Source of the DNA: a virus
Direction: 5' to 3' (one strand)
IMG/VR virus record: IMGVR_UViG_3300025128_000038
Location: 1 to 57,541 of that record
Length of the DNA: 57,541 bases
The notes under the pieces are model-generated. The model made no database searches, was not told the origin of the DNA, and saw nothing but the letters and a program-made list of their open reading frames with translations. Each line of letters opens with the position of its first letter. The first letter of the stretch is position 1. Both the position numbers and the translations under genes were made by a program. Below, in pieces: positions 28,351-55,607 of this stretch.

Positions 28351-31300
28351 ATGGCAGACAAGAAGCCGATGAAACGGCCAACAGATATTCGTACAATGTT
28401 AGGAGCAATATATAATGCTCGTGACCTTTCCAACTTAGATAAATTCATAAAAGATGTAGCACAAGTAGAAAGCTCTGGCGGTAAAAATACTGTCAGTAAG
28501 GAAAGTTCTGCACGTGGTATATATCAATTCTTAACTGAAGGAGAAGGTAACGCATTTCAAACAGGATTAAATCGTACCGCAGCTATGTATGGAAAAATGG
28601 GCTCTATTCCTGAGTGGGTAATAAAAGCCAAAGAACATAACGATCCAAATAAATTATCAAAAAAGCAACAAGAAGATGTAATGTTAGCTAACTTGTATCA
28701 ACAAGTTGGAACAGATGAATACTTTACAGGAGTTTTAGAAGGAGATTCTAAAGCTGCTTCCCAATTGTATGAACAATTTCATCATACTACAAAAGGTATT
28801 ACAGAAGATGAAAGAATAGCCGACATATTTGGTATTGTAAAAAGACAACAAGGTGGCCCAGTAGAAGCGGGGCAACCTTATTTAGTAGGAGAACAAGGGC
28901 CAGAACTTATTGTACCTAATCAAAGTGGCACGGTACTTCCAAATCAAGATCCAAAAGTTCAACAAAGAATTGAGGCTATAGATGCAAGCGTGCAAGCCCC
29001 ACTTCCCATACCTAAAGGTTATTATTCTGGAGCAGATGCAGTATACATTGGCCCAAGAGAAGAAGAATCAATTAAACCAACAAGAAAAGTAAAATATATA
29101 ACCTTTGATAATCCAGATGTAAGAATTCCTGTACCAGCAGAATTTGATGACGCTCAAACAAGAGAATACTTGAAGAGTGGCGAAGCTGAAAACTACATGA
29201 TGAGCCAAGGTTATCTTTGGAGATATGGATTAGAGCCTACTCAATTAGATGACCCAACAAATTTAGATGATTGGGATGTAACGGCTGGTATGAAAACTGG
29301 TTACGATAATCTTAAAGCTATAGGTGCGGGAGCATTATATACTTTTTGGGATGTATTTGACAACGAAGAAAAAAAGAAAGACCTTGCAAAATTAATTGAT
29401 CAATACAATCAAGACGCTTTTGCTCACTTAGTTAAACCTGGTGAAGACGGCGGTTTAAAAATACGTGAAGGTGAATCAGTACCAGCAGATTTACGTATTA
29501 CTCAATTCAGTGATTTATTTAATGAAGCTAAATTAGGCCGCTTTATAGATTGGGCGCAATTTAATTTTGCGTCTGGTGCAACCACTATGGTTCCAATGAT
29601 CTTAGCCTCTTTAGCAGGTGCTGCTGCTGGTGTTGCTGCCGCTCCCTTTACAGGAGGAACTAGTCTAGCTGCAACAGGTGCTTTAATTGCAGGTACAGGT
29701 GCAGCATATGTAATGGGTGTTGGTGAAATAACAGGGGCACAACTAGATCGTTACGGTGATTCTAATGCCGCACTATCTTTAGGAGGTGCTGTTCCTTATG
29801 CTGTAGCTGAAAGATATTTAGGTGCAGGTAATATAATTGGTCGTACACTTCTTGAAAAATATGGGAAAGAAAGTATTAAAAAAGTAATTGCAGGCACCAC
29901 TATTAAAAAAACATTTGAAACAAAATTAAATAACAGTTTAATAAAAGAAGTTGCTAAAGGTTTTGGTTCAAACTTTGTTGGTGAGGGAGCAACGGAGGCA
30001 ATTCAAGAAGTTATATCTAGTACTGCGGCCGAATTGGGAGCAGGCGCAAGTCTTGGTGATTTATATAAATCAAAAGATTTTTGGGTACAAATAGGAAATG
30101 CCGCTGCAGCTGGGGCTGTTGCAGGTGGTGGTATAGGTATGGCTATTGGTGGCCCAATGAATTACATAGGAAAAATAGGATTAAAAAATATCGATGCCAC
30201 TATAACTACTGCTGAAAGAATTAATCGTAGTAATGTTGAAGCTGTAAAATCAACTGGTGCTGCCATAGATGATATAGTAACCATAACTGGAGAGCTTGGG
30301 GATAAAGAATATAAATTATTAGGTACACAAATATTATCAGACGGTGAAGAACATTTCATACTTCAAAGTTTAGATGGCACAGGTAATGTATCTACACCAA
30401 TTAAGAATGCTAGCAAACTTAGAAAGAGTAGATTAACTGAAGCAGACAAAGCAACACTCGAAGATGGTGCAACATACATGCCAGAAGATACCACACCTAT
30501 TCCTAAAGCAAAAGAAGCAAACCAAGCTGTTAGAGATTTAAAAGCAAGGGGCATAATAAATTCAGAACAAACTGTAGAAGATCTAATAGGAATAGCTCCT
30601 GACACTGCTAGTTTCATTGAAGAAGAATGGGAAGAATACCAAGCAGAATTAAAAAATAGAGAAGAGTTAATACTGGCAGGAGAAATACCAGCCCCATTAC
30701 CTGCTAAATATAAAAAATATTTTGGACTTGAAGGCGAAGCTTTTGCTAAAGCTGCAGCTGAACAATATCAAAGAGAAAAGAAACAAGGTATTGTTGATTT
30801 CACAAATACAACATTAGCCAACGAAAATCAATTAACTGATGAAGAAAAATTAGCTTTACAAAAACTTGGGTATTACAAAGGCCCAAGAGGAATGGAATTT
30901 ATAAACAGATTATTAAGTGATACATATGTAAAAGATAAAGCTAAAGAAACAAATGGATTAAGAAAGATAAGAGAGATCATAGCTAATCAAACAGCGTATG
31001 TTCCTCAATCATTAGAAACTAATAGAGTGGTATCAAGAACCCAAGTGCCCCCTTTACTTCCTAATGAGCTTACAGGTTATCAACCGACACCAGAACAAGA
31101 AGCTGAAGGTGAAGCTCTTACACAAGCAAAGAAATTATACGATTGGAATATAGCTAAAGCAGATGAACAGATAGTTCAATTACAAAGTGAGTTAGCAGAT
31201 TTATCGGCATTGCCTCAGAGTCCTTTAAGGAATCAAGAGATAATACAAAAGACTAATGAGATTGCTAATTTAGAAACACGAAAACATGAGATTGCTAAAA

Positions 31301-34300
31301 CTTTATCTGATCCTGTAAGTCGAATAATTGCTATAAGAGATATTGTTAATAACATGGACAACTCTGGTTTCAAAGTTAACATGATTCAATATTATAGACA
31401 AGCCTTAAAAGAAGCTCGTAAAGCAAAAGATGAAGTGTTAATTCAATATTATCAAAATGAAATAAAAAATTACGTACCAACCAAGCAACATGTCTTTACC
31501 TTTAATGGAAAATTAGTATACACATTAACTTCAAAAGCTAAACAACAATTAGAAGCTGACGTAAGAGCTCTTGAAGAAGTGATGAAAGAATTGTTACCTG
31601 GAGGATTTACTATAGCAGGTTATAGAACACTAACTGAGAAACAAAGATTACGTTATAGACAAGTAAATAGAACTGTACAACAAAGAAGAAACGCAATTAA
31701 AAATATAGATAATAAGCGTGATGAACTTAATGCTTTATTAGAAAGTTTTGACATAGAACCTATTGTCAAATGGGATTCATTTTCTAACAAACCCAGAATA
31801 CCTGAATTAAATAAAATAAAGAAAAAGCTGTTTGGTTATGAAGAAATTAAAAGAGAAAAAGTAATTGAACAATATTGGAGTTTGAAAGAAAACCCAGATT
31901 CAAACGATCGTCCTGCTTTAACTGAAGAAACAATCAACAAATTACCTATGTTACTTGAAAGTTTAAACGCTGAACTTAGTCGTATGGGCTTAGATAATTT
32001 AAGTGTACGTATAATAAGTGATCTCGTAAATGCAAAGGGGGCACAGGTAAATGGTAGATTCTTAGGCGGTATGAATCTAATCGAAGTTGCTCTTAACGCT
32101 GTACAAAATGCAAGCGGCAATAAATTAAATCCATCTGATTCTCGTATGTTTACATTACATCATGAATCTATGCACTATGTATTTAGAAATTTACTAACTG
32201 AAAGAGAACAAAAAGTTTTAATGGATGCAGCACGTAAGGCGTATCTAAAAAAATACAATATTAAAAAAAGATATGAGGGGTATGGTTTAAGTGAACAACA
32301 ATTATTAGAAGAAGCTATCTCAGATGCCTTTGCTGATTATATGGCTACAACAGCTAATGGTTCTGTTTATAGTCCGAAAGGAATGATTGCTAGAATATTT
32401 GATAGAATTAGAAACTATATAATTGCATTAGGTAATGTATTAACAGGGGCGCAACTGAGACAAACAGCTCAAATATTTAACAATATAGATATGGGTGTAA
32501 TGAAAGCTCGTCAAGAGATTATGGACAAAATTGACATTAGTCAAACTGAAATGCTTAATTTGGCTTCCATAGCTGGAATATCTGAATCAGAAGCATATAA
32601 TTTCTTTTACCAAAGAGGACGTAGTGTGGTTACAGTTGGTGGAGAAAAGGTTGGTTCATCAATATCCAATGCAGATATGTATCGCTCTTGGGTAATGCAG
32701 GTTGTACCTAAAATAATATACATTCAAGAAAATCATATTTCAGAAAAGGTAACAAGAAGTGTCCTAGAAAACATTAGTAACTTAATTCAAAATTTAACAA
32801 CTGAATCTGGTGTACCTAATTTAGAGCAAGCTAATTTTTATTTACAAAGATTAAATGGTTTAAGTGAAAGAGACTTGAACACAATGGCTGCTTTTTTACA
32901 AAGCAATATAGGCGCTAGACTAAACCTAAAACTTATAGGAGATTTAAAAGCATCAATGCCATCTAGGGTGACAGAACATGCGGTTAGATTATTGGAACTG
33001 TTGGATAATCCTGCATTTTTTGCAGCAAGATTAAATACTTTAAATAAAAATATGCCAACAGAAACAGACATAAGAATAGCAGGCTCTCCTCATATTGTAT
33101 TCCATGGTACAGATCCAAAGATAGCTAAGGATATAACAAAGAAAGGATTTAAAATAGCACCTGGAATTGGAGATGATTCACTGGGAGTGCATTTTGGTAC
33201 CATGTCTCAAGCTTCTATTATATCTATGAAAAAATATGGCAATGTTGAAATGCTACCTGCTATATTACACATTGTAGATCCTGTTAGGATGAAAGATATG
33301 GGAGCTAATTGGGGTGCTAACAGAGCATTAAATGCATTGACCATGGAAATAAAAGACACTAATCTTGAGTATGGTCTTGATGTAGATATGGGAAGACCAA
33401 CGACACCAGGACTGATAATAGATAAAATATTTACACAAGAAGAAGCTCGTATTATAAGAGACAAATTCCAAGACATAGTGGCAAAAGCATTTCGTAAATA
33501 TACACCGACAGAAGTTCAGAAGCTAGAAAGAAATCAAGAAGTACGTTATGAACAACAAAAAATATTAATAGATGCGATTAAAGATAAAGGATATGACGGA
33601 ATAGTTTATCGTAACGTATATGAAGTTACTGAAGAACCTGGCATTGAAACTAAAGATTCTTTTATTGCATTTGATTCAAATCAAATAATGCTTGTAGATA
33701 ATAATTCTAATTTAGATATGTCTGATATTAGTTATAGTGCGGCTACAACTGTAGAACCAGACCCATCAGACGATAGTTTAAGTGAGCCTGTAGAGGCAAC
33801 TAGACATGAACTTAGACTAGATGAAAAAGGCATTGAGGAAAGTGGTAAAGCGGCAGATAAGGTAACCGATTTAAAAGATGGAGAAACAATTAATTTAAAA
33901 GATTTAGGCAGAGCAGAAAAAATGATGATGCACTTTAGAGGAATTGCATTACGTTATCCTTTCTTAAGTAAACTTTGGAGACTTGTTACTGGCATGGAAC
34001 AAAAAGCCAGAGGAATACAAATGCAATTTGCTGCACAAATGAGACGTTATTATGATATCATTAACAGAGTTGAAGGAGCCAAAGAAGCATTAGCTAAAGC
34101 TCATATTATATCACAACAAGAAGGGGCACAGGCTAAATATACAAAAGATGAACAAGGTAGGATTATATTTGTATCTCCAAAAAGTTTAATTTCAGGTGGT
34201 AATAATCCTATAACAATTAATCAAGGTGAAGTTGTTGTATTGGAAGGTGCTGTAGCGGATGTTTACATGGAAGCACAAGCTGCTATAGAGACAGTGTTAA

Positions 34301-37014
34301 AAGAACATATGAAAGGTACGATAGCTAGTTCCTTTATTCCACAATTAAAAAGTGCTATTCGTATATTGACTGAATATAATCCAGAAATATTAGTCAGTGC
34401 AGGAATTGATCCCGCAACTGTTACTGATAATGATATTGAGAATTTTGAATTTAATGAAGTGAATGCTATTGTACAAGGTTTAATAGCAACTCCTCAAATT
34501 ATAAGAAATAAAGCAATGGATGCATCTTTAATGAACAGCGTTAATCTTAGTAATTTAGCATTAAGTGTTGGAGAAATTACAAATTCTATTGGTGTCTTAT
34601 TAGGTGGAACGGAAACTAATCTTAACACATTATTGAAACAAACAGAACAATTTGAACAATTCAAAAAGTTTGATTATGTTCCATTACAAAGATATGGAAC
34701 ACATGCAATAACTGTAACAGATAAAGAAGGTAAAGTACTTAGGTATGAACATATAGAAAAAACATTAGTAGAGGAGAAAGCTAGAGGATTTACTAATGCT
34801 CGTAAGTTTGCAGATGTAAGAAGTCGTTTAATAAGAGAGTACCCACCTTCTGAAGGTTATACGGTATCTGAAGTAGAGGAAATAAACAATGAAGTTAGGA
34901 ACAGATTACCTAAAGATTTATCTATGTTGGACAATATGGCTCAACGTTTGTCTGATAGAAATGCAGAAGGATATAGGCAAGCTAGAGAAGAATTAGATTC
35001 AATAATTGGAAAAGGAAATTTAATAGGATTTGATCAGTTCTTAAGAGGAAGAAAAGAGATTGGTGGTGTGCCAGGATTTGATGGAGATATACTAAGAAGC
35101 ATATCACAGTTTGGTATGGTAGGTTCTGAATATGCGGCAAGAAATAGATTTTTAAAAGATATAAAAAATAGCTACACAGAAGCAATTAATTATGCGGATA
35201 AAAATAATTTAGTACGTTTGAAAGATACTATTACAAAGATGAAAGAATATGGTGTAGACAATTCTCATAATCATGAATGGGCTACAATGAGAAGAATGGG
35301 TTTCTGGTGGTTCTTAGGTGGTAATATATCTTCTGGTATCTTACAAACAATGAGTATCGTACAATTCACTGGGCCAATGTTAGCAGAGTTCAGCAACAGT
35401 GCAGCCGCTGCTACAGAATTATCAAGAGCTTTTGCGGATGTATCTAGATTAGGTTCTTGGAGCGATAACGAATACAATGATGTTTGGTTAAAATTAGATA
35501 GAAATAGTTTAATGAAAGTGTTTAAAGATAAACAATTAGTTGAAGCTATTATAGAAGATGTAGGAAATGGTATCATTAAACAAGGACAAGCATTGTTTGA
35601 ATCTGGTCAAGCTCCTGGGTATCAAATAATACCAACTGATAAGACAACCCAACAAGCTAGAGCAAGATTAAAGATAATGGAACAACAAATAATGGGCGGA
35701 ACTTTCAACACTATGGAAACATTCTCTCGTTTAGTTGCTTATGTTGCCGCATACAGGACAGTATCTAACCCGACTTCAGGAACAATTTCTAATCCTGCAA
35801 AAAATATGCAAAGAGCAGATGATTGGTATTCTGGTTCTAATCTTATTTGGGGTGAGATGAAAAAACAAAGAGGTGGAATAGCCACTGCTCAAGATCTTGC
35901 CCGTATATTAATTGATGATACTTTCGGAGATTACTCTAAAGCCAACCGTCCTAGAATGATGAGAAATTTTGGATCAGTGGTATTTTTATTTCAAACATAC
36001 ATCAGTCAAATGTTTGGTTTACTTAGAAGACTATTAGTAGGACAAGGCAACGCACAACAACGGGCAATGGGAAGAAGAATATTCGCAAGAATAATACTTC
36101 AATTATTTTTGACTGCTGGATTATTTGGATTACCAGGATTTGACGATTTAGATTTCTTATATAGAATGATTATGAAAATGGGAGGAGTCAATGATGATCT
36201 ACGTACACAAATGAGAGAAGTGTTAACAGACGTTGGAGTTGGTGCAAAAATGACAGAGGCTATAATGAATGGGGGCATAGAATCTTTTGGTAATATAAGT
36301 GTACAAAGAAGATTATCTTTAGGAGAAGTACCTGGGTCAGCACAGATGCGAGCAATGTTATCCATGTTGGGCGTACCAACAGGAGCTAAAGCTGAACAGT
36401 TTTTAGGTGCACCTGGTGCAATTATGTTTGGTATTCCTAGTGAATTAAACAGAATGATACAACAACAAGGGGGAAAAGCATTTAGTGATATGGATTTCTA
36501 TATGGCTACCATGCCTTCGTTTGTTAAAAATCTATATCGTGCGGCATATAAATATCCAGCAGAAGGATATGTTGAAACACGAAATGGGACATTGTTAACT
36601 ACAGATGTCAAAGCACACGAGTTAATGTTGCAGGGAATAGGGTTTACCCCAACTGAAATATCTAAAGCTAGGGAAATACTATGGTATGAAAAACAAATAG
36701 ATACTAAGTATCAGGGAAGAACAAAAAGATTTAATGCTCAAATTAAAAAAGCTTATAGAGATTTATATATGGCAATCAATTTAATAAATGATCCAGCACT
36801 TGGTATAGAAGCTCAACAAAGATTGCAAGAAGCAATGAGAGAAATAATAGAATTTAATAATACAGTTGACTCACCATATACTTATGTCCCAGATCTTAAT
36901 AGATTAAGAGATGAAGGTATACAACAAGCCAACTCTGAATATAGAGCTTTTAAATCTGATAAAGCTACTTACTTAAAAAAGCAAGACATGTATAAACAAA
37001 TGGGTGTTAATTAG
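28351..37014 (+). CDS. giant polyvalent virion protein with lysozyme-like, zincin and ART-like domains, 2,887 aa
   Basis: This is probably ejected into the cell with the DNA. Seen in order: (1) residues about 30-155, a lytic-transglycosylase-like domain with VAQVESSGG (Glu40) and SSARGIYQF (52-60), for opening peptidoglycan; (2) a GGPVEAGQPYLVGEQGPE segment common in tape-measure and virion proteins; (3) Ala/Gly-rich hydrophobic segments at about 411-458; (4) a zinc-peptidase motif HESMH at 1271-1275 with EE at 1320-1321; (5) an ADP-ribosyltransferase-like domain with VFHGTD (about 1583-1588), GYDGIVYRN (about 1747) and DSFIAFDSNQI (about 1769-1779); (6) a long helical C-terminus with an apparent membrane segment near 2577-2595. 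Such multi-domain ejected proteins are known as polyvalent proteins; domain limits are by eye. Confidence 0.8.
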   Translation: MADKKPMKRPTDIRTMLGAIYNARDLSNLDKFIKDVAQVESSGGKNTVSKESSARGIYQFLTEGEGNAFQTGLNRTAAMYGKMGSIPEWVIKAKEHNDPNKLSKKQQEDVMLANLYQQVGTDEYFTGVLEGDSKAASQLYEQFHHTTKGITEDERIADIFGIVKRQQGGPVEAGQPYLVGEQGPELIVPNQSGTVLPNQDPKVQQRIEAIDASVQAPLPIPKGYYSGADAVYIGPREEESIKPTRKVKYITFDNPDVRIPVPAEFDDAQTREYLKSGEAENYMMSQGYLWRYGLEPTQLDDPTNLDDWDVTAGMKTGYDNLKAIGAGALYTFWDVFDNEEKKKDLAKLIDQYNQDAFAHLVKPGEDGGLKIREGESVPADLRITQFSDLFNEAKLGRFIDWAQFNFASGATTMVPMILASLAGAAAGVAAAPFTGGTSLAATGALIAGTGAAYVMGVGEITGAQLDRYGDSNAALSLGGAVPYAVAERYLGAGNIIGRTLLEKYGKESIKKVIAGTTIKKTFETKLNNSLIKEVAKGFGSNFVGEGATEAIQEVISSTAAELGAGASLGDLYKSKDFWVQIGNAAAAGAVAGGGIGMAIGGPMNYIGKIGLKNIDATITTAERINRSNVEAVKSTGAAIDDIVTITGELGDKEYKLLGTQILSDGEEHFILQSLDGTGNVSTPIKNASKLRKSRLTEADKATLEDGATYMPEDTTPIPKAKEANQAVRDLKARGIINSEQTVEDLIGIAPDTASFIEEEWEEYQAELKNREELILAGEIPAPLPAKYKKYFGLEGEAFAKAAAEQYQREKKQGIVDFTNTTLANENQLTDEEKLALQKLGYYKGPRGMEFINRLLSDTYVKDKAKETNGLRKIREIIANQTAYVPQSLETNRVVSRTQVPPLLPNELTGYQPTPEQEAEGEALTQAKKLYDWNIAKADEQIVQLQSELADLSALPQSPLRNQEIIQKTNEIANLETRKHEIAKTLSDPVSRIIAIRDIVNNMDNSGFKVNMIQYYRQALKEARKAKDEVLIQYYQNEIKNYVPTKQHVFTFNGKLVYTLTSKAKQQLEADVRALEEVMKELLPGGFTIAGYRTLTEKQRLRYRQVNRTVQQRRNAIKNIDNKRDELNALLESFDIEPIVKWDSFSNKPRIPELNKIKKKLFGYEEIKREKVIEQYWSLKENPDSNDRPALTEETINKLPMLLESLNAELSRMGLDNLSVRIISDLVNAKGAQVNGRFLGGMNLIEVALNAVQNASGNKLNPSDSRMFTLHHESMHYVFRNLLTEREQKVLMDAARKAYLKKYNIKKRYEGYGLSEQQLLEEAISDAFADYMATTANGSVYSPKGMIARIFDRIRNYIIALGNVLTGAQLRQTAQIFNNIDMGVMKARQEIMDKIDISQTEMLNLASIAGISESEAYNFFYQRGRSVVTVGGEKVGSSISNADMYRSWVMQVVPKIIYIQENHISEKVTRSVLENISNLIQNLTTESGVPNLEQANFYLQRLNGLSERDLNTMAAFLQSNIGARLNLKLIGDLKASMPSRVTEHAVRLLELLDNPAFFAARLNTLNKNMPTETDIRIAGSPHIVFHGTDPKIAKDITKKGFKIAPGIGDDSLGVHFGTMSQASIISMKKYGNVEMLPAILHIVDPVRMKDMGANWGANRALNALTMEIKDTNLEYGLDVDMGRPTTPGLIIDKIFTQEEARIIRDKFQDIVAKAFRKYTPTEVQKLERNQEVRYEQQKILIDAIKDKGYDGIVYRNVYEVTEEPGIETKDSFIAFDSNQIMLVDNNSNLDMSDISYSAATTVEPDPSDDSLSEPVEATRHELRLDEKGIEESGKAADKVTDLKDGETINLKDLGRAEKMMMHFRGIALRYPFLSKLWRLVTGMEQKARGIQMQFAAQMRRYYDIINRVEGAKEALAKAHIISQQEGAQAKYTKDEQGRIIFVSPKSLISGGNNPITINQGEVVVLEGAVADVYMEAQAAIETVLKEHMKGTIASSFIPQLKSAIRILTEYNPEILVSAGIDPATVTDNDIENFEFNEVNAIVQGLIATPQIIRNKAMDASLMNSVNLSNLALSVGEITNSIGVLLGGTETNLNTLLKQTEQFEQFKKFDYVPLQRYGTHAITVTDKEGKVLRYEHIEKTLVEEKARGFTNARKFADVRSRLIREYPPSEGYTVSEVEEINNEVRNRLPKDLSMLDNMAQRLSDRNAEGYRQAREELDSIIGKGNLIGFDQFLRGRKEIGGVPGFDGDILRSISQFGMVGSEYAARNRFLKDIKNSYTEAINYADKNNLVRLKDTITKMKEYGVDNSHNHEWATMRRMGFWWFLGGNISSGILQTMSIVQFTGPMLAEFSNSAAAATELSRAFADVSRLGSWSDNEYNDVWLKLDRNSLMKVFKDKQLVEAIIEDVGNGIIKQGQALFESGQAPGYQIIPTDKTTQQARARLKIMEQQIMGGTFNTMETFSRLVAYVAAYRTVSNPTSGTISNPAKNMQRADDWYSGSNLIWGEMKKQRGGIATAQDLARILIDDTFGDYSKANRPRMMRNFGSVVFLFQTYISQMFGLLRRLLVGQGNAQQRAMGRRIFARIILQLFLTAGLFGLPGFDDLDFLYRMIMKMGGVNDDLRTQMREVLTDVGVGAKMTEAIMNGGIESFGNISVQRRLSLGEVPGSAQMRAMLSMLGVPTGAKAEQFLGAPGAIMFGIPSELNRMIQQQGGKAFSDMDFYMATMPSFVKNLYRAAYKYPAEGYVETRNGTLLTTDVKAHELMLQGIGFTPTEISKAREILWYEKQIDTKYQGRTKRFNAQIKKAYRDLYMAINLINDPALGIEAQQRLQEAMREIIEFNNTVDSPYTYVPDLNRLRDEGIQQANSEYRAFKSDKATYLKKQDMYKQMGVN

Positions 37015-40145: not shown

Positions 40146-42068
40146 TTATTTCGTCGATATGTCAACTATTTCACACACTCCAGAACTACAAGCCAACTCC
40201 TGTGATCCTGTTGTGTTGTCCTCTTCCTCATAATTACTTAATTCTCTCCAATCAATATGCTGTGGCATGTCTTTTATGGCCTCTAAATATTGATTCTTAT
40301 CTATATCTTGATAGGGTGCTTGTTGATATACATGATCAGAGTATGGTAAAAAACTTATACCAGATATCTCATCAAAGTATTTGTATACCCATGCTCCCAC
40401 ATCCAACCACTCATGCTCTCTTACTGATACAGTACATGAAGGTTTGTGTTCACACCAATACCGTTGATATATTAGCCATGTTTCTAATTGATCTATTGCT
40501 GTTAAATCATTTCTAGTTATACAATCATTTGGTGCTTGCATTGGAAATGAAAAGACTACAACTGAATCGGGTTTAGTAATGTCTGGTTCGTATGGTATTC
40601 CTTTATCAATCATCAAGGCTGTTAAAGGATCTTTCTTATCTCCTCTAACTGTTCTTATATAATATTGGTTGTGTCTACTGTGTATACCAGATGCACTATC
40701 AACAAGTTGACTGACAGTACCACTAGGTTTAACACAAGTAATAGCTGTTGATTGTGGTATTCCTAATTTTTTAGAAAACTCTTTGTTAGTATCAACGGCT
40801 TCTTTTCTCAGCTTCATAAGTAATTCTTTTTTAGGATTGCTAGTAAGTCTATTGTCCATGATACCTGTTAAAGATACACCAAGTAATCTTTCTTCTTCAG
40901 TATTTTGTTTCCATATTTTACGAAGGTATTTAAAGTCAGTAAAAGTAGATTGAAAAGTTCCAAGTATAGTGGCCGCTCTCACTTTAGCTAAGAGATCTTT
41001 CTCACTATCAGTAGCACGAATAACTACTTCGGTTAAATTACAAAACTGATAAGGTCTTAAGATAATTTCAGAGCAAGGGTTAGTACCAAAGTCCCATTCA
41101 ATATCTCTTCTATTATTTTCAGATGCTTTATTTTTGGCGGCTTGCCTATTAAAAATGCCACGTTCTCCAGATTTAGAATCATATAAACTTTTCCATTCTT
41201 TAATAAATACAGACATATCGGGTTTACTTGTATATGTTGCTGAGTTATTAGAGAGGGCACGTTGGCCTTCTTCTAACCACCATTGTCCTGTCTTAGCACT
41301 ACGCATCCTATCATCTTGTAAGTTACTAAGAGATATTAAAGCAGATCTTCTTACTCCTCCAACAACAACTATCTCACCAACTTTACAAACAACATCATGA
41401 CATTCTAAAGAATTAAGTTGTCTGCCTGCCGCATTTTTAAAAGTCTTAATAGTAAAATCAAATAAACTAATTAAAGGTTGAGGGCCACTTGCCCTTCCTC
41501 CAAAAGTTTTTAAACGTGAACCAGCAGGGCGCACTCTAGTTACATCTATTTTTGGAACTTGTCCAGAATATAACATGGCAATCAATTCTCTAAATGCTCT
41601 TGCCCAACCTGCTTTACTGTCTTGAACTGCAATTATTGTATCACTATCTTCAAACTCTTCTGCAACTATAGGTAACTTTTCAGTGTTGCTTCTTTCAACA
41701 GAAAATCCTACACCTGTTCCACATAAAAGAATATACATAACTTCATCAAAAGATCTTATATGATCTATCGGTATGTAGCTACAATTATATCCTGCTGTAT
41801 TGTCTCTTTCCAATGCAGGCCCTGCCGTCATAAGAGCTCTCATTGATGGCATAACTTTTAAAGATAATATAGCATCTAACAATTCTTCTTTTATTTTATT
41901 ATTTAATTTATATTTAAAATTAGTTTCAATATGATTAACAACAAAACCAACGTACCTGCTTACAGTTTCTCCCCACGTTTCTCTTCTTTTTTCTTCATCT
42001 ATAAATCTAGCATATCTAGATGTGTGTATAAATTGTTGGTATTGCGTAGGCAGATGGTTATTGGTCAT
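40146..42068 (-). CDS. nrdJ: adenosylcobalamin-dependent (class II) ribonucleotide reductase
   Basis: This enzyme reduces ribonucleoside triphosphates to deoxy forms using coenzyme B12, supplying dNTPs for phage replication. It is monomeric RTPR type, 640 residues versus about 740 in the Lactobacillus enzyme. Seen: C96 in AGYNCSYIPID (redox partner), C332 in GTNPCSEIIL (thiyl-radical Cys), C343 in QFCNLTEVV exactly 11 residues later (redox partner, same spacing as the classical enzyme), VKPSGTVSQLVDSASGIHSR, and the C-terminal shuttle pair C627/C632 (CSSGVC). It has its own promoter at 42116-42144. Confidence 0.93.
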   Translation of the reverse strand: MTNNHLPTQYQQFIHTSRYARFIDEEKRRETWGETVSRYVGFVVNHIETNFKYKLNNKIKEELLDAILSLKVMPSMRALMTAGPALERDNTAGYNCSYIPIDHIRSFDEVMYILLCGTGVGFSVERSNTEKLPIVAEEFEDSDTIIAVQDSKAGWARAFRELIAMLYSGQVPKIDVTRVRPAGSRLKTFGGRASGPQPLISLFDFTIKTFKNAAGRQLNSLECHDVVCKVGEIVVVGGVRRSALISLSNLQDDRMRSAKTGQWWLEEGQRALSNNSATYTSKPDMSVFIKEWKSLYDSKSGERGIFNRQAAKNKASENNRRDIEWDFGTNPCSEIILRPYQFCNLTEVVIRATDSEKDLLAKVRAATILGTFQSTFTDFKYLRKIWKQNTEEERLLGVSLTGIMDNRLTSNPKKELLMKLRKEAVDTNKEFSKKLGIPQSTAITCVKPSGTVSQLVDSASGIHSRHNQYYIRTVRGDKKDPLTALMIDKGIPYEPDITKPDSVVVFSFPMQAPNDCITRNDLTAIDQLETWLIYQRYWCEHKPSCTVSVREHEWLDVGAWVYKYFDEISGISFLPYSDHVYQQAPYQDIDKNQYLEAIKDMPQHIDWRELSNYEEEDNTTGSQELACSSGVCEIVDISTK

Positions 42069-42149: not shown

Positions 42150-42632
42150 TTATACAAAAGTCCTCAAATATAATGTAGATAAATCTTGTTTATACAAGTC
42201 ATTGGTATCATCTATGATAACTCCTTTGATTTCCTTGTTTAAAAACTTACAAACTTGTACCATTATAATGGGACTGTCTGGGTATAGGTGTTGTATAATT
42301 GGTCTATATAAATACCTTAATTGAATTTGGGCTATTTTCCTAGACTTAAGCTTACACTCCATTATTATTATTTCTTTATTATCTCCGTGTGGTAAAATAA
42401 CTATATCAGATTGGCAATAACCTACGCCTCTTCTATCCTTATAATTATACCATTGACCATGCAAAACATTATCTTCTCCATAGATAGCTTTCATATATTC
42501 GGCCACTCTTTTTTCATACAAGACTCCAGCTCTCTTCACACCTGTCAACCTTGGAGAGGGTATAAATGACGGGCGTTCATCAAGAGCCTTTGCCCATTGC
42601 AATTTACTGATTACTAAACGTCTTTTCGACAT
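42150..42632 (-). CDS. PD-(D/E)XK-type endonuclease, 160 aa
   Basis: The basic N-terminus is followed by GVLYEKRVAEYMKAIYGEDN (Glu40), then CQSDIVILP (D76) and EIIIMECKLK (E92, K94), the classic E...D...ExK layout of restriction-like nucleases and phage Holliday-junction resolvases. The length is usual for a resolvase. It overlaps the DUF3987-like gene by 19 bases in the replication operon, so a role in DNA branch resolution or debranching before packaging is likely. Confidence 0.75.
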   Translation of the reverse strand: MSKRRLVISKLQWAKALDERPSFIPSPRLTGVKRAGVLYEKRVAEYMKAIYGEDNVLHGQWYNYKDRRGVGYCQSDIVILPHGDNKEIIIMECKLKSRKIAQIQLRYLYRPIIQHLYPDSPIIMVQVCKFLNKEIKGVIIDDTNDLYKQDLSTLYLRTFV

Positions 42633-43879
42633 GGAAAAACCACATTCCCTTCTAGTTTTATGTAACCAGAATCTTCCATAGCCTTGATGGTTTGTTCTAA
42701 CTCACCAGGATTTGGAATCTTTCTCAGCAATTCTCGTTTAAATAATTTCAAAAGCATATGACTTCTTCCATTATTAAATAGTGTACCATGCAACCACGTT
42801 ACCATGTCATGTGCAATACGACCTGTGCGACCCATACCAAAACCTTCTAAAGCTTTAGGCATTTGTTCTTCAGCCGCAAACATTAATTCTTTTGTAAATT
42901 CCCAATCTTCTAACATTATCTTACGGGTGCCCCTCCTTGAAGCAGAGACAGCAATAGCAACTTTAATAAAGTGAGACACTCTACGTTGCACATATTCAGA
43001 TAAATGATTATCAGTAGGCTCTGGTGGTATGCCAGCTTTTATATCTTCATCTACAATTTCAAAACAATCTTCATCAAAAGTCATTGGCCCATACATCTTA
43101 GATATATCAGCTAAGTCTTCTCTTAAATTATCTATAGTATTTCCACTAACTTTTTTTTGAATTAATGATTGAGGTATCCTTTCTCCGTCATAATAAATAG
43201 GAAGCATACGAGATAATAATCCTTGAGATCTTGCATCTTCTGGTAAATTATCTACAAATTGTTCTGGTGTAGCACAAGCTAACCAATTAAGACATGGGCC
43301 TTTTATAATATATTCCCCAGATGTTTTAGTCTTGTGACTATATTCTTCTTTAGAATCCCACATATCTGTCATAAACATTTGAAGATATCTCTCATGCCTA
43401 CCCATAAACGTACCAAATTCTGATGTAACTAATGTCATTGATGAATCATAAAATTCATCCAACGCAGGTGTTGATAATCTTAAATCTAATCTAGTAATCT
43501 TAGTCATATCTACTGCTAATTTTTCTGGAGTAATTCTATCTTGTATCACATACAGTGGATAATTACGTAAGCCATACTGATCTAATCCAGAATTAAAATT
43601 TTGATCATCTTCAGTAGTGCCCACAGGTGTGGTTAATTTACTAAATATTTTTGTGAATGGTAGTATTAAACTTACTGATTTGTTTCGTCCTGGAGGGGCA
43701 ATTAATACTACAAATAAGTTGGATCTAATATCATAGTTAGCCATTGGATACCACACACGTCTACCCATAGCCCCAGCTACTGCACTTAATGCGCTCCATT
43801 GTGCAAATGGTTTTGGTATTGGGCTATCTGCTACTGCATCTACTGATGCCTTTATAAAATCTGTATAGTTTCTACTCAT
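42614..43879 (-). CDS. DUF3987-like P-loop ATPase/helicase, 421 aa
   Basis: Walker A APPGRNKSV lies at about 61-69 (K68), after a helical start (PKPFAQWSALSAVAGAMGRR) and before a Walker B region with LVTSEFGTFMGRHERYLQMF. The segment LNWLACATPEQFVDNLPEDA, followed by SQGLLSRMLPIYYD, fits the DUF3987/phage replicative helicase group, which unwinds DNA at the fork. The C-terminus looks like a winged helix (NPGELEQTIKAMEDSGYIKL). No primase domain is seen. Overlaps the polymerase gene by 8 bases. Confidence 0.75.
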   Translation of the reverse strand: MSRNYTDFIKASVDAVADSPIPKPFAQWSALSAVAGAMGRRVWYPMANYDIRSNLFVVLIAPPGRNKSVSLILPFTKIFSKLTTPVGTTEDDQNFNSGLDQYGLRNYPLYVIQDRITPEKLAVDMTKITRLDLRLSTPALDEFYDSSMTLVTSEFGTFMGRHERYLQMFMTDMWDSKEEYSHKTKTSGEYIIKGPCLNWLACATPEQFVDNLPEDARSQGLLSRMLPIYYDGERIPQSLIQKKVSGNTIDNLREDLADISKMYGPMTFDEDCFEIVDEDIKAGIPPEPTDNHLSEYVQRRVSHFIKVAIAVSASRRGTRKIMLEDWEFTKELMFAAEEQMPKALEGFGMGRTGRIAHDMVTWLHGTLFNNGRSHMLLKLFKRELLRKIPNPGELEQTIKAMEDSGYIKLEGNVVFPCRKDV

Positions 43880-45419
43880 GTGGTTTCCATTTCTTCATGT
43901 TCTTCCAATCGAGACCTGTCTCACAATCAGAAGGAATAATCATTTCTTTTTCATTTACTTGTATAGGATTTTTCATACAAGCTAATATCTTAGGGATAAT
44001 TTCTTTTTCTTTTCCAATAGGAAACTGACCCAATATCGCATCATGTACTTGTCCTAATATTTCTACGCCTTCATTATTTAATTCATTCCATACACGATAC
44101 AATCCTAAGTTTAATAAATCTCCAATAGTTGATTGAGGAATATATGCAATTGCTTTACGTAATGTTGTTGCATCATCTAGTCTTCCCCAAAATTGTCTAC
44201 GTCTTCCTAGAGGAGTTGTTAAAGTACCTTCCAATTGTAATTGCTTGGCAGTATTATCATGCCACTTTCTAATGCCAGGAAATGCTCCTTGTATTTTGAC
44301 TAAGGAAGATGCACCAGTCCCTATAATCGTGCCCCCATCAATTAGTTCTTGGAAACCACCTTCCTTGTCTTGTTTGTGCCACCTCTCCAATGATGACAAC
44401 GCAACTACTCCACCATAGTAAAGTAATTGAAACCTCGTTGCATGTGAAATCTTAATCTTTAAATGTCTACCTAAAGATGTAGCAGATAAACCATAATTAG
44501 TTCCATGTCCTGCTCGTTTACACATATCTCTATAACTAAAATGTCCTATGTAAGGACGATCAGCTAATTCTCTATTTTGTGCTAAGTCAGAAGACCAACC
44601 CATATTGGGCCACACCATTTTAACTACTTGAGTATGTAAGTCTTCTCCTTCACACGCATTTACATATCCTTCATCACCTGCTACATATGCAGTAACTCTA
44701 GATTCTGCTTGTTCTAAGTCAGCATAAAATAAAATGTTACCTTCATCGGGTACAAATATTTCACGCATATCCTTTGTAATATTTTGTAAGTTAGTTCCTG
44801 TACTCCAAGGACTTTCTGAACTTGCCCATCTGCCTGTCTCAGTACCAGCTACTTTAAATGAAGTACGAAGTCTACCATCTTCATCTCTTTTACAATTAAG
44901 AATATTTAATTGTTTATCTATATCTCTCAAAGCTAAAATAGAATTACAAAAAGGACGAGCACGTGGGTATTCTTTTCTTAAATGTTCTAATGCTTCTTTA
45001 TCTGTAGATACTTTTTGTTTACCTTTAACATAAGAAATAACTGGAGGAAGCCCCAACCATTCATATAAAAAACTTTTTAATTGCGTAGGACTATTGTGGT
45101 TGAGATCCTTTTCCCATACAGCTTCAGCAAAAAGATTTAACATTCTCTCCACTAATACTCTGTTCTTGACAAGGGGGGCTCGGATTTCTCCAACCTTCTT
45201 CTCATCAACTTTAAGTCCACGCAACATCATATGCATTGCAGGTTTTAAACTCTGCAATTCAAACTCATATGTCTTTCTAGTTGTTTGGTCTAACTCATTG
45301 GATAGCTTACCCCATATCTCATGAGTAAGCGCACAGTCTAATCCACAATAAACCCATAAGGTTTGTTCTTTAGACAGTTCCTTCTGTGCTATCTCCGTGT
45401 TTCTTATTACTCTCATCAT
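43872..45419 (-). CDS. family A DNA polymerase, polymerase domain with exo motif III only
   Basis: This is the replicative polymerase core. Motif A: LFYADLEQAESRVTAYVAGD (D234). Motif B: RDMCKRAGHGTNYGLSATSL. Motif C: GQVHDAIL (D460). The first 30 residues hold VYCGLDCALT, which is the third motif (YxxxD) of the 3'-5' proofreading domain. Motifs I and II are missing here but present in the gene at 45965-47062. The start is fixed by AGGAGAGGG directly before ATGATG. The polymerase is therefore split within its exonuclease domain. Confidence 0.9.
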   Translation of the reverse strand: MMRVIRNTEIAQKELSKEQTLWVYCGLDCALTHEIWGKLSNELDQTTRKTYEFELQSLKPAMHMMLRGLKVDEKKVGEIRAPLVKNRVLVERMLNLFAEAVWEKDLNHNSPTQLKSFLYEWLGLPPVISYVKGKQKVSTDKEALEHLRKEYPRARPFCNSILALRDIDKQLNILNCKRDEDGRLRTSFKVAGTETGRWASSESPWSTGTNLQNITKDMREIFVPDEGNILFYADLEQAESRVTAYVAGDEGYVNACEGEDLHTQVVKMVWPNMGWSSDLAQNRELADRPYIGHFSYRDMCKRAGHGTNYGLSATSLGRHLKIKISHATRFQLLYYGGVVALSSLERWHKQDKEGGFQELIDGGTIIGTGASSLVKIQGAFPGIRKWHDNTAKQLQLEGTLTTPLGRRRQFWGRLDDATTLRKAIAYIPQSTIGDLLNLGLYRVWNELNNEGVEILGQVHDAILGQFPIGKEKEIIPKILACMKNPIQVNEKEMIIPSDCETGLDWKNMKKWKPHE

Positions 45420-45690
45420 CCCTCTCCTGTATGACTTCTATTAATTTATTAATAAACCATTTAGCTTTTTCTAAATCTTGTATTGGTTTCCCTTTGTGTT
45501 CATGTCTCCATAAATATTTAATAGCTGATGCTTGTAGGTAATATTTAAAGCCGTCTCCTTGACAAGATTTAATCGCATCAATACAACCAATACCACCTTT
45601 GTTATAGTGTGCTGGAAAATTTACTGGATCATTCTTTTCTTTTTCTTCAATCTTTTTTGATAATTCAATCATGTCTTTTACGCTTGTCAT
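45370..45690 (-). CDS. DUF3310-like protein (SaV type), 106 aa
   Basis: The segment NDPVNFPAHYNKGGIGCIDA, then KYYLQASAIKYLWRHEHKGK and DLEKAKWFINKLIE, is the signature of DUF3310, a short phage protein of unknown biochemical role often near nucleotide-metabolism genes. The last 50 bases overlap the polymerase gene. It is one of two genes that interrupt the split polymerase. Confidence 0.82.
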   Translation of the reverse strand: MTSVKDMIELSKKIEEKEKNDPVNFPAHYNKGGIGCIDAIKSCQGDGFKYYLQASAIKYLWRHEHKGKPIQDLEKAKWFINKLIEVIQERDDESNKKHGDSTEGTV

Positions 45691-45958
45691 TTGCTATCCT
45701 CACTATATAAAAAAATTCTTCTTTTGCTTTTTCTGGATCCAACATGGCGAAGTCACATATTAAATCAAAATCATCGCTATCATTAATCAACCAATGAATA
45801 GCATCTTCTCTAAACTTTATGTATTCTTTATCGTTTCCTAAATAAGATATGTCTTGCATAGCTTGATCCAATACAGAACGCCAAAGTAATATCTCATTCT
45901 CAACCGCATAGTGCTCCTCTTCTATCGGCTTGGCCGCAAAGTATTGGGGACGTTTCAT
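45665..45958 (-). CDS. hypothetical protein, 97 aa
   Basis: This acidic helical protein (EILLWRSVLDQAMQDISYLG, DDFDLICDFAMLDPEKAKEE) has a basic tail. No family is recognised. It lies between the UDG-exonuclease gene (6 bases away) and the DUF3310 gene (26-base overlap), inside the split polymerase region. Confidence 0.6.
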   Translation of the reverse strand: MKRPQYFAAKPIEEEHYAVENEILLWRSVLDQAMQDISYLGNDKEYIKFREDAIHWLINDSDDFDLICDFAMLDPEKAKEEFFYIVRIANDKRKRHD

Positions 45959-45964
45959 AAAGTT

Positions 45965-47062
45965 TTATTCCTCTGCTTTCGTACTCTTGGAAAAACTTGT
46001 TAGATTTTTCCATGCCCCCTCGTTAGTATAAATAGAACCTAAGTAACCCAAACTTTTTTCCATCTCTGGTTGGAGAGAATGTTGTGCATGCATTGTATCA
46101 TGCACAGTTCCTTTGACTTCTATTTTATATTTATGACGCAACCACGATATGTCATACGTTTGATTCTGTGCTACTTTCGTAACATTAGGGTTGCTTAGTG
46201 TTCGTTTAATTCTATCCCATACTAGTAATTCATTAGAATAATCCCAATAGTCTTTACTATCTTCTGTTTTAAATGGAACTACCATTGCTCTTTTTTTATT
46301 AGGCGCAAATCCTATACAAGTTATTTCACCAAATGCAGTTTCAATATCAAATGATAAAGGATTGTCTGCGTTGTTAAGTAGTTCACATTCAGTTAAGAAT
46401 TCATCTACTTCTTGTAGTGTTGGTTCAATTAATATTTCTCTTTCGGTATGTTCTATTTCAATATTATCTTTAGCACTAACTGCCTTCTTTAAATCTGCCG
46501 CTACGGTTGGCCTAAACGAATAGTTTTTTATTATAGATAGAGGACTGTAAGTAGGCATAATTTTATAAGGTCTTGTTGCCCACTCTGAATCTGCTTCAAG
46601 GAATGAACCTCTGTATGACCCGACTTTATCTAAACCATATAAAGACCATAGAGATATATTACCCATGGCTATAATAATTGTTGGATTATATTTATTTATT
46701 TCATCTTTTAATCTTTTTATATCTTGTTCATACTCTTCTTTTAAATATCCATATTGGGTGGGCACAAACTGTGACCTCCACTCTGTTTCTTTTTTTAATT
46801 TTTTGTATTCACTTCTTTTGTGAAAGAAATTCTGTGGGTTTTCTTGTGCAGGTTTTAATTGAATGGCATGAGTGAGCATAACAGTCTGTGCATTTATACC
46901 TGCGAATTTGCACATAGGATTCAGTACTTGCTGTATGCCTCCTGTATTTATTTTGTTAAGTCTAGATTCGGTAGTCGTAGGATATTCTAAAACTATGCAA
47001 ACAGAATCCCCAGAATCTGGAACCTGAGACTCAACCCGCTTATGTACTGCGTACTCACTCAT
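45965..47062 (-). CDS. UDG-like domain fused to N-terminal part of PolA 3'-5' exonuclease, 365 aa
   Basis: Residues about 15-195 resemble the uracil-DNA-glycosylase fold (VCIVLEYPTTTESR, NPTIIIAMGNISLWSLYGLD, MPTYSPLSII). The typical catalytic motifs are altered: the end motif has YSP where active enzymes have HP. Residues 236-365 are the start of a PolA proofreading domain: exo I FDIET (D239, E241) and exo II AQNQTYDISWL (D304). Exo III is on the separate polymerase gene. A UDG domain in front of PolA is known in SPO1-like phages; here the fusion is broken into two proteins that likely reassemble. Confidence 0.8.
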   Translation of the reverse strand: MSEYAVHKRVESQVPDSGDSVCIVLEYPTTTESRLNKINTGGIQQVLNPMCKFAGINAQTVMLTHAIQLKPAQENPQNFFHKRSEYKKLKKETEWRSQFVPTQYGYLKEEYEQDIKRLKDEINKYNPTIIIAMGNISLWSLYGLDKVGSYRGSFLEADSEWATRPYKIMPTYSPLSIIKNYSFRPTVAADLKKAVSAKDNIEIEHTEREILIEPTLQEVDEFLTECELLNNADNPLSFDIETAFGEITCIGFAPNKKRAMVVPFKTEDSKDYWDYSNELLVWDRIKRTLSNPNVTKVAQNQTYDISWLRHKYKIEVKGTVHDTMHAQHSLQPEMEKSLGYLGSIYTNEGAWKNLTSFSKSTKAEE

Positions 47063-47072
47063 GTATTACAAA

Positions 47073-47516
47073 TTACCTATTAATTATTTTCTTAATAGAC
47101 GCTTGTAATATATCTTTATTCTTACCAACCATCTCGTGCTTAACTACACCAGAAAAAGATTGGCCGATTGCTTGTTCAAGCAACTCACCAAAAGACGACT
47201 CTTGATCCATGCCTAGAGATCCTGTTAAGAAACTCTTTAAAGACATCGCTGGATTTTTTTGTTTCATAGCATTAGGTGTTGCCCAATACTCTAGTCTTGT
47301 TGGTTCTGCGTTAGCTATATCAGCTTGATCCAAGTCTGATTGAATCACTGCTGTAGCTTTCACATTTATCTTCACTAACGGAGTTTGGTTCTCACCAACT
47401 CTGTCGGAACGATAGCTAGTAATTACAAAATCGTAACTACCCTCTGGTAAAGTAACCGTTTGTGGTACTTCATTTGGTGACATACTTAAAAAGTCACTCA
47501 CGTCTGATCCTGTCAT
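47073..47516 (-). CDS. DUF669-like/ssDNA-binding accessory protein, 147 aa
   Basis: I place the start at the ATG at 47514-47516 (MTGSDVSDFLSMSPNEVPQT), with GGAGGG upstream; the open frame continues to 47603 inside the next gene. The core TLPEGSYDFVITSYRSDRVG then VKINVKATAVI looks like the beta sheet of DUF669 proteins, found beside Sak4-type ATPases and thought to bind single-stranded DNA. Spacing to its neighbours is about 10 bases on either side. Confidence 0.6.
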   Translation of the reverse strand: MTGSDVSDFLSMSPNEVPQTVTLPEGSYDFVITSYRSDRVGENQTPLVKINVKATAVIQSDLDQADIANAEPTRLEYWATPNAMKQKNPAMSLKSFLTGSLGMDQESSFGELLEQAIGQSFSGVVKHEMVGKNKDILQASIKKIINR

Positions 47517-47529
47517 GGTATATACCCTC

Positions 47530-48324
47530 CTATTTTGACATTGATTTTGACAACTTCTTCTTTGCGTTACCTTGAATTGCATCAAACAATTTTGCAAGAT
47601 CAAGTTCTGTATTAGGTTCTAATATATCTAATGCAGGAACTTTAAGATCCATTCTATGATCTGATACAGTTCTCAGTGATCGCTCTGTGCCTTTGCTAGA
47701 ACTCTTAGTGTCCACTCTACAAACACAGTTAAAGTATCGACCCAATTTTGTAGATAGCTTTGAGCCAACACTAGTTGGATATGATTTACTCACACCCAAA
47801 TCTCCTTCCATGTATTGCATGTGTGTTGTCACCACAACATTACACGGAACTTCCGAACCAGTTATATATTGAATGAGGTGTTGCACATCTCGTGCCGCCG
47901 TTCCCCATTCTGGTTGAGAAGGTTGGTCTGTTGGTTTCTTGTTATTAAAAACTAATGCACTACGTAATGCAGACTCTCCCATAAGGGTGAGACTGTCTAT
48001 CACAAGCACATCATCTTTAGTCCAAGTCTTAACAGAACCAAAATCTTCAGTACCGTCTTTCCAATTAGCAATTAAATTTGCCCCCTTTCTAAAAGCTTGG
48101 GCTTGTCCAATTGGATCTTTAAGTGTCACATAAGACACACGACTTACTGCTTCTGGTGTTAGTAAGTCTGGTAATATAGATAGACCATCGTCATAATCTA
48201 ATATGCGAAGGTTCTTTCCTGCGTTAGCTAATGAAGCTAGTGCCGCAGTTTTACCAGATCCGCTGTCGCCTACCAGTAATAGTTTAGTTACATCTGTTGA
48301 TGCATGTTGTTTAATGTTTGCCAT
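47530..48324 (-). CDS. RecA-like ATPase, Sak4 family
   Basis: Phage recombination ATPase. Walker A GDSGSGKT (19-26), a following NLRILDYDDGLSIL segment, and Walker B DDVLVIDSLTL (about 103-113). The order and length (264) match Sak4/AAA_24 proteins that promote strand annealing with phage SSB. The neighbouring DUF669-like gene supports this. Likely role: homologous recombination and replication restart. Confidence 0.85.
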   Translation of the reverse strand: MANIKQHASTDVTKLLLVGDSGSGKTAALASLANAGKNLRILDYDDGLSILPDLLTPEAVSRVSYVTLKDPIGQAQAFRKGANLIANWKDGTEDFGSVKTWTKDDVLVIDSLTLMGESALRSALVFNNKKPTDQPSQPEWGTAARDVQHLIQYITGSEVPCNVVVTTHMQYMEGDLGVSKSYPTSVGSKLSTKLGRYFNCVCRVDTKSSSKGTERSLRTVSDHRMDLKVPALDILEPNTELDLAKLFDAIQGNAKKKLSKSMSK

Positions 48325-48774
48325 TTATAGTATCCTCCTACTTAAATATCTTTGCATGGTGTAAGGATCACTTATCTCATAAGGATCATAATCTGTTGGA
48401 ACATTATCTGCTTTACCTTCTTCTTCAAACATCTTTTCAACTTGTCCGTCTTGAAGTACGGCAGAATATCTCCATGATCTTTTACCAAATCCTTTGTTAC
48501 TTTTATCTACTAACATATTTAACTTGTTAGTTAATTCACCATTGCCATCTGGTAATGTTTTAATTTTTTCAATCTTTAAATTATTTGCCCATGCATCCAT
48601 AACAAACTTATCGTTAACAGAAATACAATAGATATCATCTACGTATTGTAACAATTCATCTGCCATTACTTCGTACTCTGGTAAATGTTTAGATGAACAA
48701 GTTGGAGTAAAAGCACCAGGCAATCCAAAGATTACCACTCGTTTATCTTTAAATAATAAATCAAAATTTCCCAT
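48325..48774 (-). CDS. peroxiredoxin, Prx5 type
   Basis: Reduces hydrogen peroxide and organic peroxides using a peroxidatic cysteine. Seen: VVIFGLPGAFTPTCSSKHLP with Cys26, the Prx5 signature, and DDIYCISVND with a second Cys (50) before the KFVMDAWA helix. The length (149) is complete. Starts from its own promoter (48795-48823). Likely protects host and nucleotide reduction from oxidative stress during infection. Confidence 0.88.
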   Translation of the reverse strand: MGNFDLLFKDKRVVIFGLPGAFTPTCSSKHLPEYEVMADELLQYVDDIYCISVNDKFVMDAWANNLKIEKIKTLPDGNGELTNKLNMLVDKSNKGFGKRSWRYSAVLQDGQVEKMFEEEGKADNVPTDYDPYEISDPYTMQRYLSRRIL

Positions 48775-50744: not shown

Positions 50745-51515
50745 TTATTTATTTTCCTCTACAGAATCTTTATTTTGTTTAATAGTTTTATTCACTAGTA
50801 GTTCTTCTTCTTCTTTTTCTACATGCCATGCATTCATATTCAAAGCAATTGTTCTTCTCTCACCTTCTCCTCTAAAAGGAAAGACTGTGTGTTGTAACCA
50901 CACTGGAAAGAAATACACTCTTCCTACTTTAGGTTGTAAGGTAAGCGAGTGAGGTGGTCGCAGTCGTGAAGCATCCATTGATGATGTGTTGCCGTAGTTA
51001 AACATTATATAACCGTCGCTACAGCCAGAAGAATCAAATAAAGTGTACCCTGCTTCATTAGGATCGGGTTGTTTTGTTATTTGTTCTGGTACTTTAGTCC
51101 AAGTAGTTGCCGCTAGTCCTGTTAAAGTTTTACAACTATGGTCATGTAGTGGATTATAATCTCCTTCATAACTGTGTACTGACCACATTGCATCTACTGA
51201 CACACTCATTGCTTCTGGATAAAGTTTATTGGTTCCTGTTCTTTCCTTGAAGTAATGTATATATTTATGTCCAAGTTGGCACATCAAATGAGAAAACTTT
51301 TTAACTCTATCATCTCTATGATCCATTGTTAATTGTTGTCCTCCTTGTATTTGCCCAACTAAAGTAGGAGCATGTGAAATCCGCCCCTCTTTTTCTACAA
51401 GATTATCTAGGTAATGATTTAAATCTGATACCATAAACGCAGGAAGCTCTGCTTCCATTAACCAAAACGAAGGAAGAGTGTGCATTTTAAGGTCTACTTT
51501 AATTCCATCACTCAT
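50745..51515 (-). CDS. 2-oxoglutarate/Fe(II) oxygenase-like, 256 aa
   Basis: The cupin-type enzyme core has NPLHDHS (H124-D-H126), a second iron ligand H209 in PVWLQHTVFP, and RRTIALN (R221) for 2-oxoglutarate binding. This layout is that of putative 2OG-FeII_Oxy_5 enzymes, common in marine phages and thought to hydroxylate proteins or DNA bases. The C-terminus is acidic. Overlaps the upstream basic gene by ATGA. Substrate unknown. Confidence 0.78.
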   Translation of the reverse strand: MSDGIKVDLKMHTLPSFWLMEAELPAFMVSDLNHYLDNLVEKEGRISHAPTLVGQIQGGQQLTMDHRDDRVKKFSHLMCQLGHKYIHYFKERTGTNKLYPEAMSVSVDAMWSVHSYEGDYNPLHDHSCKTLTGLAATTWTKVPEQITKQPDPNEAGYTLFDSSGCSDGYIMFNYGNTSSMDASRLRPPHSLTLQPKVGRVYFFPVWLQHTVFPFRGEGERRTIALNMNAWHVEKEEEELLVNKTIKQNKDSVEENK

Positions 51516-55533: not shown

Positions 55534-55607
55534 TGGAGAGGGTAGTAAGAATCGAACTTACTTACATAGAGTTGCAGTCTATTGCATAGCCAATCTGCCA
55601 TACCCTC
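55534..55607 (-). tRNA. tRNA-Cys (anticodon GCA)
   Basis: A complete 74-nt cloverleaf: acceptor GAGGGTA/TACCCTC, a 3-bp D stem with loop, anticodon stem ATAGA/TCTAT with loop CTGCAAC (GCA), variable GTAA, T arm GTAAG/CTTAC with TTCGATT, discriminator T, and CCA encoded. The D arm and layout resemble alphaproteobacterial tRNA-Cys. It is the only tRNA found. Confidence 0.9.

Follow-up and report, generated by a model that had tools for sequence, protein, structure and literature searches.

Phage enzymes encoded in two pieces are already known. The split DNA polymerase of Aeromonas phage 25 (gp43A/gp43B) co-purifies and is active, and the NrdA ribonucleotide reductase of phage Aeh1, likewise split, retains full function in trans (PMC2988022). 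A whole lineage whose polymerase is split across its proofreading active site, on the other hand, appears to be undescribed, and a search of the open-access literature yielded no lineage in which the cut passes through the exonuclease active site. Here, we describe such a locus in a 57.5-kb virus record (IMG/VR IMGVR_UViG_3300025128_000038, 57,541 nucleotides; hereafter the window, whose coordinates are used below). It consists of two genes on the minus strand: (i) an exo half of 365 amino acids (45965–47062), with a head resembling family-4 uracil-DNA glycosylase (UDG) followed by exonuclease motifs I and II (exo I and exo II), and (ii) a pol half of 515 amino acids (43872–45419), with the exo III helix and a complete family A polymerase domain. 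We read the pair, with a probability of roughly 0.86, as a family A polymerase in pieces that arose by one ancient fission and whose products assemble in trans.

Position of the break within the exonuclease domain

An earlier note, made from the sequence of the window alone, had placed exo I, exo II and a UDG-like head on one protein and exo III with the polymerase motifs on the other; its coordinates and motif positions were correct on recheck, and both assignments were borne out by domain matches and by alignment to Escherichia coli DNA polymerase I (Pol I; reference sequence from MG1655). The exo half matched PF01612 (DNA_pol_A_exo1; E = 4.7e-11) and, more weakly, PF03167 (UDG; E = 2.4e-6), and the pol half matched PF00476 (E = 3.9e-40). 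Both also matched the phage DNA polymerase profile phrog_17, which they tile from 476 to 799 and from 803 to 1239 with no piece missing. In the profile alignments to Pol I, SFDIET and NQTYD of the exo half correspond to D355/E357 and D424, which are D239 and E241 (exo I; codons at 46340–46348, minus strand) and D304 of QNQTYD (exo II; 46151–46153, minus strand). VYCGLD of the pol half corresponds to Y497/D501, found here as Y24 and D28 of YCGLD (exo III; 45336–45350, minus strand), and the polymerase aspartates of motif A (D234; 44718–44720, minus strand) and motif C (D460 of QVHDA; 44040–44042, minus strand) lie downstream in the same protein. All residues of a DEDDy exonuclease are present but spread over two proteins: three acidic residues are on the exo half, and the tyrosine and fourth acidic residue are on the pol half. 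Neither the hidden Markov model (HMM) described below nor the Pol I alignment gave an exo III segment in the exo half. While phage UDG-exo-PolA proteins of phrog_17 are single polypeptides, the window has two open reading frames (ORFs) with two genes between them.

The same cut was found in Caulobacter phage Kuura and in 225 environmental loci; as several of the latter come from one contig, they were collapsed to ~116 distinct pairs (55 representatives at 95% identity). On an HMM of intact UDG-exo-PolA proteins, in which exo I falls at 235/237, exo II at 301, exo III at 367/371, motif A at 585 and motif C at 752, the exo half of these 225 loci stops at 346–362 and the pol half begins at 354–366, and no conserved segment is absent from the two halves together. 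In all 225 loci, two genes thus tile one ancestral protein, as in other genes in pieces, and the exonuclease residues of both halves align within one PolA exonuclease domain of the intact relatives, the comparison that the earlier note had proposed. These end and start positions put the cut in the loop that follows the conserved YWK of intact enzymes and leads to the exo III helix. In the window, the exo half ends ~14 residues past the conserved WK, and ~20 residues precede exo III in the pol half.

Each chain was modeled singly with AlphaFold 2 (AF2) from alignments of the environmental loci, without Kuura. The pol half alone gave a mean pLDDT of 90 and a pTM of 0.83, with the exo III helix at its N-terminus, and its Foldseek matches were KlenTaq, Bst and Pol I. 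The exo half alone (mean pLDDT 86) was modeled confidently up to about residue 320, after which confidence fell to 65–70 and then below 50 in the stretch leading to the missing exo III helix. Its top Foldseek match was the family A polymerase of phiLo (9qhs; E = 2e-10), followed by family-4 UDG/UdgX and Klenow.

The Foldseek matches and a motif check indicate that the UDG-like head has kept its fold and lost its catalytic motifs. In the window, the family-4 UDG motifs are degenerate (VLEYPTTT in place of GExPGxxE, and YSPLS in place of the HPS-type motif), and the head has too few cysteines for the four that bind the Fe-S cluster of family-4 UDG. The motif residues are variable across the 55 split representatives. 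Since the fold is retained without these motifs, a structural or DNA-contacting role is more likely than an active glycosylase. Parts of the glycosylase motifs are kept in some distant split relatives and in most intact relatives.

Conservation and distribution of the two-gene form

Purifying selection acts on both halves. The D and E of exo I, the N and D of exo II, the Y and D of exo III, and the D, K and D of the polymerase (the motif A and motif C aspartates among them) are identical in 55/55 split representatives, and Y24 and D28 belong to the few invariant positions of the pol half. In 10 of 11 close pairs, dN/dS was ~0.03–0.25 for the head, the exo core, the exo III region and the polymerase; in the eleventh, dS was saturated or nearly so. 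The new N-terminus of the pol half, MMRVIRNTEI in the window (45390–45419, minus strand), has a similar short motif before exo III in most relatives, M-x-I-x-x-[NT]-x-x-[LI] being found in 53/55 split representatives compared with 7% in residue shuffles, a contrast inflated by kinship.

Either half, used as a query against IMG/VR, matched hundreds of contigs, and the split-polymerase phages are a large, mostly marine family. Intact one-gene relatives with similar gene neighbors are found in Mel-JY34, ctMlz233, Tiera, EBPR podovirus 3, PaP2, P5, LS06, vir526 and environmental contigs, the latter searched with a Mel-JY34/ctMlz233 pair as the query alignment; near-full-length intact ORFs numbered 55 in all. 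Maximum-likelihood analysis of 62 sequences placed all 26 split ones on one side of a single branch (support 100), corresponding to one change; the tree came from a quick search, its long branches lie only among intact sequences, and the split and intact sets were gathered with different queries. In a scan ranked by likeness to the Kuura exo half, every locus with both halves in view was split. Together, the branch and the scan make a single origin of the split likely, though not proved. No relative was found in a profile search of genome contigs for a cellular host.

The stable gene fission proposed in the earlier note has therefore held up, with the same breakpoint in 225 loci, one branch in the tree, invariant catalytic residues, low dN/dS, and no intron, intein or intact copy. 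A frameshifted copy of an intact gene elsewhere, which would have argued against it, is excluded within the window, where there is exactly one PolA match and one DNA_pol_A_exo1 match. No second polymerase was found in the record, and a pseudogene or duplicate was likewise ruled out by these single copies.

Genes between the two halves

The two intervening genes named in the earlier note, one for a DUF3310 protein and one without a recognizable family, were both recovered. Directly after the exo half lies a gene for a 97-amino-acid protein (45665–45958, minus strand) with no Pfam or PHROG match, followed by the DUF3310 gene (106 amino acids; 45370–45690, minus strand; PF11753, E = 1.6e-16), the 3' end of which overlaps the pol-half start by 50 nucleotides. 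Relatives of the 97-amino-acid gene, at 35–100% identity, directly follow the exo half throughout the marine subclade, and none was detected in Kuura. The protein may act as a third subunit, or its gene may be an early one with no link to the polymerase. Weak relatives of it occur in Pelagibacter phages HTVC023P, HTVC103P and HTVC104P, in the first of these away from polA.

The intervening sequence is unrelated between subclades. A sister subclade (L050) has a DUF6378 gene instead of the DUF3310 gene carried by the subclade of the window, and other gaps carry DUF1937/DUF4406/nucleoside-deoxyribosyltransferase-like, DNA ligase or RNase H genes and, in some cases judged by eye, MazG-like ORFs. 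In the 225 loci, 351–2854 bp separate the exo stop from the first conserved pol-half residue, and in one further record (G001) the halves are ~5.1 kb apart, with two large tail-protein-like ORFs and others between them. The gap is best read as a slot for accessory genes, mainly of nucleotide metabolism. Frameshifting or bypassing across the gap was ruled out by its size and variety.

Proposed assembly in trans and alternative explanations

Most likely, the two proteins join to rebuild the proofreading site. This is suggested by three observations: the active site is divided, its residues are invariant in each of the two genes, and no other polymerase was found in the record. In the proposed sequence of events, a single UDG-exo-PolA gene in the ancestor of a podovirus-like lineage would have undergone one break, in the loop ahead of the exo III helix, after which each piece would have gained its own stop or start and a ribosome-binding site. 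Expressed as separate proteins from one gene cluster, the two halves would then bind each other noncovalently, and the exo III helix of the pol half (Y24/D28) would complete the metal-binding site to which exo I (D239/E241) and exo II (D304) contribute the rest. Synthesis and proofreading by the resulting two-chain polymerase would be normal, and the space between the halves would later have become the slot for accessory genes. We infer exonuclease activity, as well as the direction and mechanism of the original break.

Three points weigh against this reading: (i) the split sequences share descent (~26 independent lineages), so the invariance counts overstate independence; (ii) the conserved K-x-[DE] tail at the exo-half C-terminus may reflect the Shine-Dalgarno sequence of the next gene rather than docking; and (iii) the chains could in principle work apart, with the polymerase lacking proofreading and the exo half, unattached, using a substitute for the third acidic residue. 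A docking tail was our first interpretation of the K-x-[DE] residues, and it was dropped as their codons frequently overlap the following gene, at its start or ribosome-binding site.

As to how the break arose, a homing endonuclease gene may have been inserted in polA and later lost or replaced, an origin compatible with assembly in trans. The earlier note had seen no intein or homing endonuclease, and this holds for the window; it does not hold for the family, as a relative (L314) carries an HNH endonuclease gene (HNH_3, E = 7.9e-9) immediately after its exo half, either kept or regained. Insertions of mobE and seg split nrdA and have been linked to the split gene 43 of T4-like phages (PMC2988022). 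Such an endonuclease near the break is frequent, not obligatory, in enzymes encoded in pieces. However, HNH genes made up only 1/76 of the intervening ORFs scanned, and the one found may be a late arrival in an open slot, so we put this origin forward tentatively, as somewhat less probable than its converse.

The break might also be in use, with docking of the exo chain switching proofreading on, fidelity or strand displacement tuned by subunit exchange or relative expression, and the gap genes co-regulated with this switch; we regard this extension of the two-chain polymerase as doubtful. Less probable still is that the polymerase lacks proofreading, the exo half functioning by itself as an exonuclease or a DNA-binding subunit and the exo III residues being kept for structure only. 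In some jumbo phages, a stand-alone exonuclease is proposed to work for a polymerase that has none of its own (PMC7824862). However, the exo half lacks any exo III segment, and that Y24 and D28 should be invariant in every representative, among so few such positions in the pol half, is hard to reconcile with this scheme.

It is very unlikely that the two ORFs are exons from which one polymerase is made once an intron, or trans-splicing, has taken out the small genes. Phage polymerase genes with group I introns do exist, and such introns have been proposed for the split PolA of OM43 phages MEP401/MEP402 (PMC10580990), but no Rfam intron match was obtained here, either across 43000–48400 at a permissive threshold or in the whole window at the gathering threshold; the sole Rfam match in these scans was a chance S15-leader, far below its gathering score. 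Moreover, the exo, pol and small ORFs each have their own start and an upstream purine-rich, Shine-Dalgarno-like stretch, the exo and pol ORFs have their own stops, and the intervening sequence, unrelated between subclades, varies from 351 bp to ~5.1 kb and holds ordinary genes. Ligation of the halves after translation by the pieces of a split intein is more improbable again. Split inteins do occur in replication proteins, but the short stretches flanking the cut (~14 residues past WK and ~20 before exo III) leave no room for intein N- or C-domains, and no intein family in Pfam matched among the window proteins. Finally, frameshifts introduced into an intact gene by assembly or sequencing, a general possibility for metagenome contigs and nothing beyond that, can be practically dismissed, given that hundreds of contigs from many metagenomes share an identical layout with Kuura, a cultured and restriction-verified phage.

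The replication gene cluster and other features of the window

The terminase, portal and major head genes of the window are on the plus strand, and the replication cluster is on the minus strand. In transcription order, the latter comprises a Sak4-like AAA ATPase (47530–48324, minus strand; PF13479, phrog_124), a 176-amino-acid protein, the exo half, the 97-amino-acid protein, the DUF3310 protein, the pol half and, directly downstream, a DUF3987 primase/helicase-like gene (42614–43879, minus strand; PF13148, phrog_14296), which is also next after the intact polA in relatives such as Mel-JY34. A peroxiredoxin-like phage protein (Redoxin, phrog_2281) is encoded within the cluster at 48325–48774. 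Elsewhere, the window holds a short (640 amino acids) class II-like ribonucleotide reductase that matches phrog_367 over nearly its full length (40146–42068), a 2OG-Fe(II) oxygenase gene (50745–51515) and a tRNA gene (55537–55607). A 2887-amino-acid protein (28351–37014) with a sub-threshold ART-PolyVal domain match is probably a polyvalent ejected protein.

Comparison with known split and intact polymerases

The locus offers a natural, evolutionarily proven cut site in a family A polymerase in which proofreading would be complete only when two chains meet. Reconstitution and control of exonuclease and polymerase activities in trans thereby become directly testable, and the halves are ready-made parts for split or switchable proofreading polymerases. 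The break in a replication gene can, in addition, serve as a long-lived slot for accessory genes, and some "hypothetical proteins" can be explained as the missing N-terminal half of a replicative polymerase. Such is the case of Kuura_029 (L001 6007–7116), annotated as "hypothetical protein", which is the UDG/exo half of the Kuura DNA polymerase.

Kuura (OQ067476; Kuura_029 and Kuura_026) shares with the window the same loop cut, the same order, two small genes between the halves and a gene in the primase position directly downstream. It differs in sequence, with ~29% (exo half) and 37% (pol half) identity in local matches, and in its intervening genes, which are unrelated. The intact polymerases of Microcystis phage Mel-JY34, ctMlz233, Polaromonas phage Tiera, EBPR podovirus 3, PaP2 and phiLo (the last with a solved structure, 9qhs) have the same exonuclease and polymerase domains, and the UDG-like head is clear in those of Mel-JY34 and ctMlz233. 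Unlike in the window, these podovirus polymerases are encoded by one continuous gene, with the exo III loop unbroken.

MEP401/MEP402 (PMC10580990) and Vibrio phage VS-ABTNL-3 likewise divide a family A polymerase over two ORFs, separated by a small gene. In MEP401, however, the cut is within the polymerase domain, giving N- and C-terminal PF00476 parts with the whole exonuclease on one chain (PMC10580990), and in VS-ABTNL-3 it falls just before motif A, again with the exonuclease whole on one chain. A second class of split, at model positions ~558/561 just before motif A, comprises VS-ABTNL-3 and seven environmental loci (L363, L385–L387, L357, L358, L390 and L004 being listed) and is possibly the MEP401-type split. 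A third split lies between the exonuclease and polymerase domains in ctLwi270 (L145; 1727–4364), where a NrdR-like zinc-ribbon ORF overlaps the gap (2878–3138).

Among enzymes known to work in two pieces, Aeh1 NrdA is, as here, one enzyme from two genes, but it is a different enzyme and an endonuclease gene is still in its gap. The gp43A/gp43B polymerase of Aeromonas phages 25 and 44RR is encoded by two genes, like that of the window; it belongs, however, to family B, and its break is not shown to divide the exonuclease active site (PMC2988022). Whereas that split is tied to particular phages, the split in the window is that of a broad lineage.

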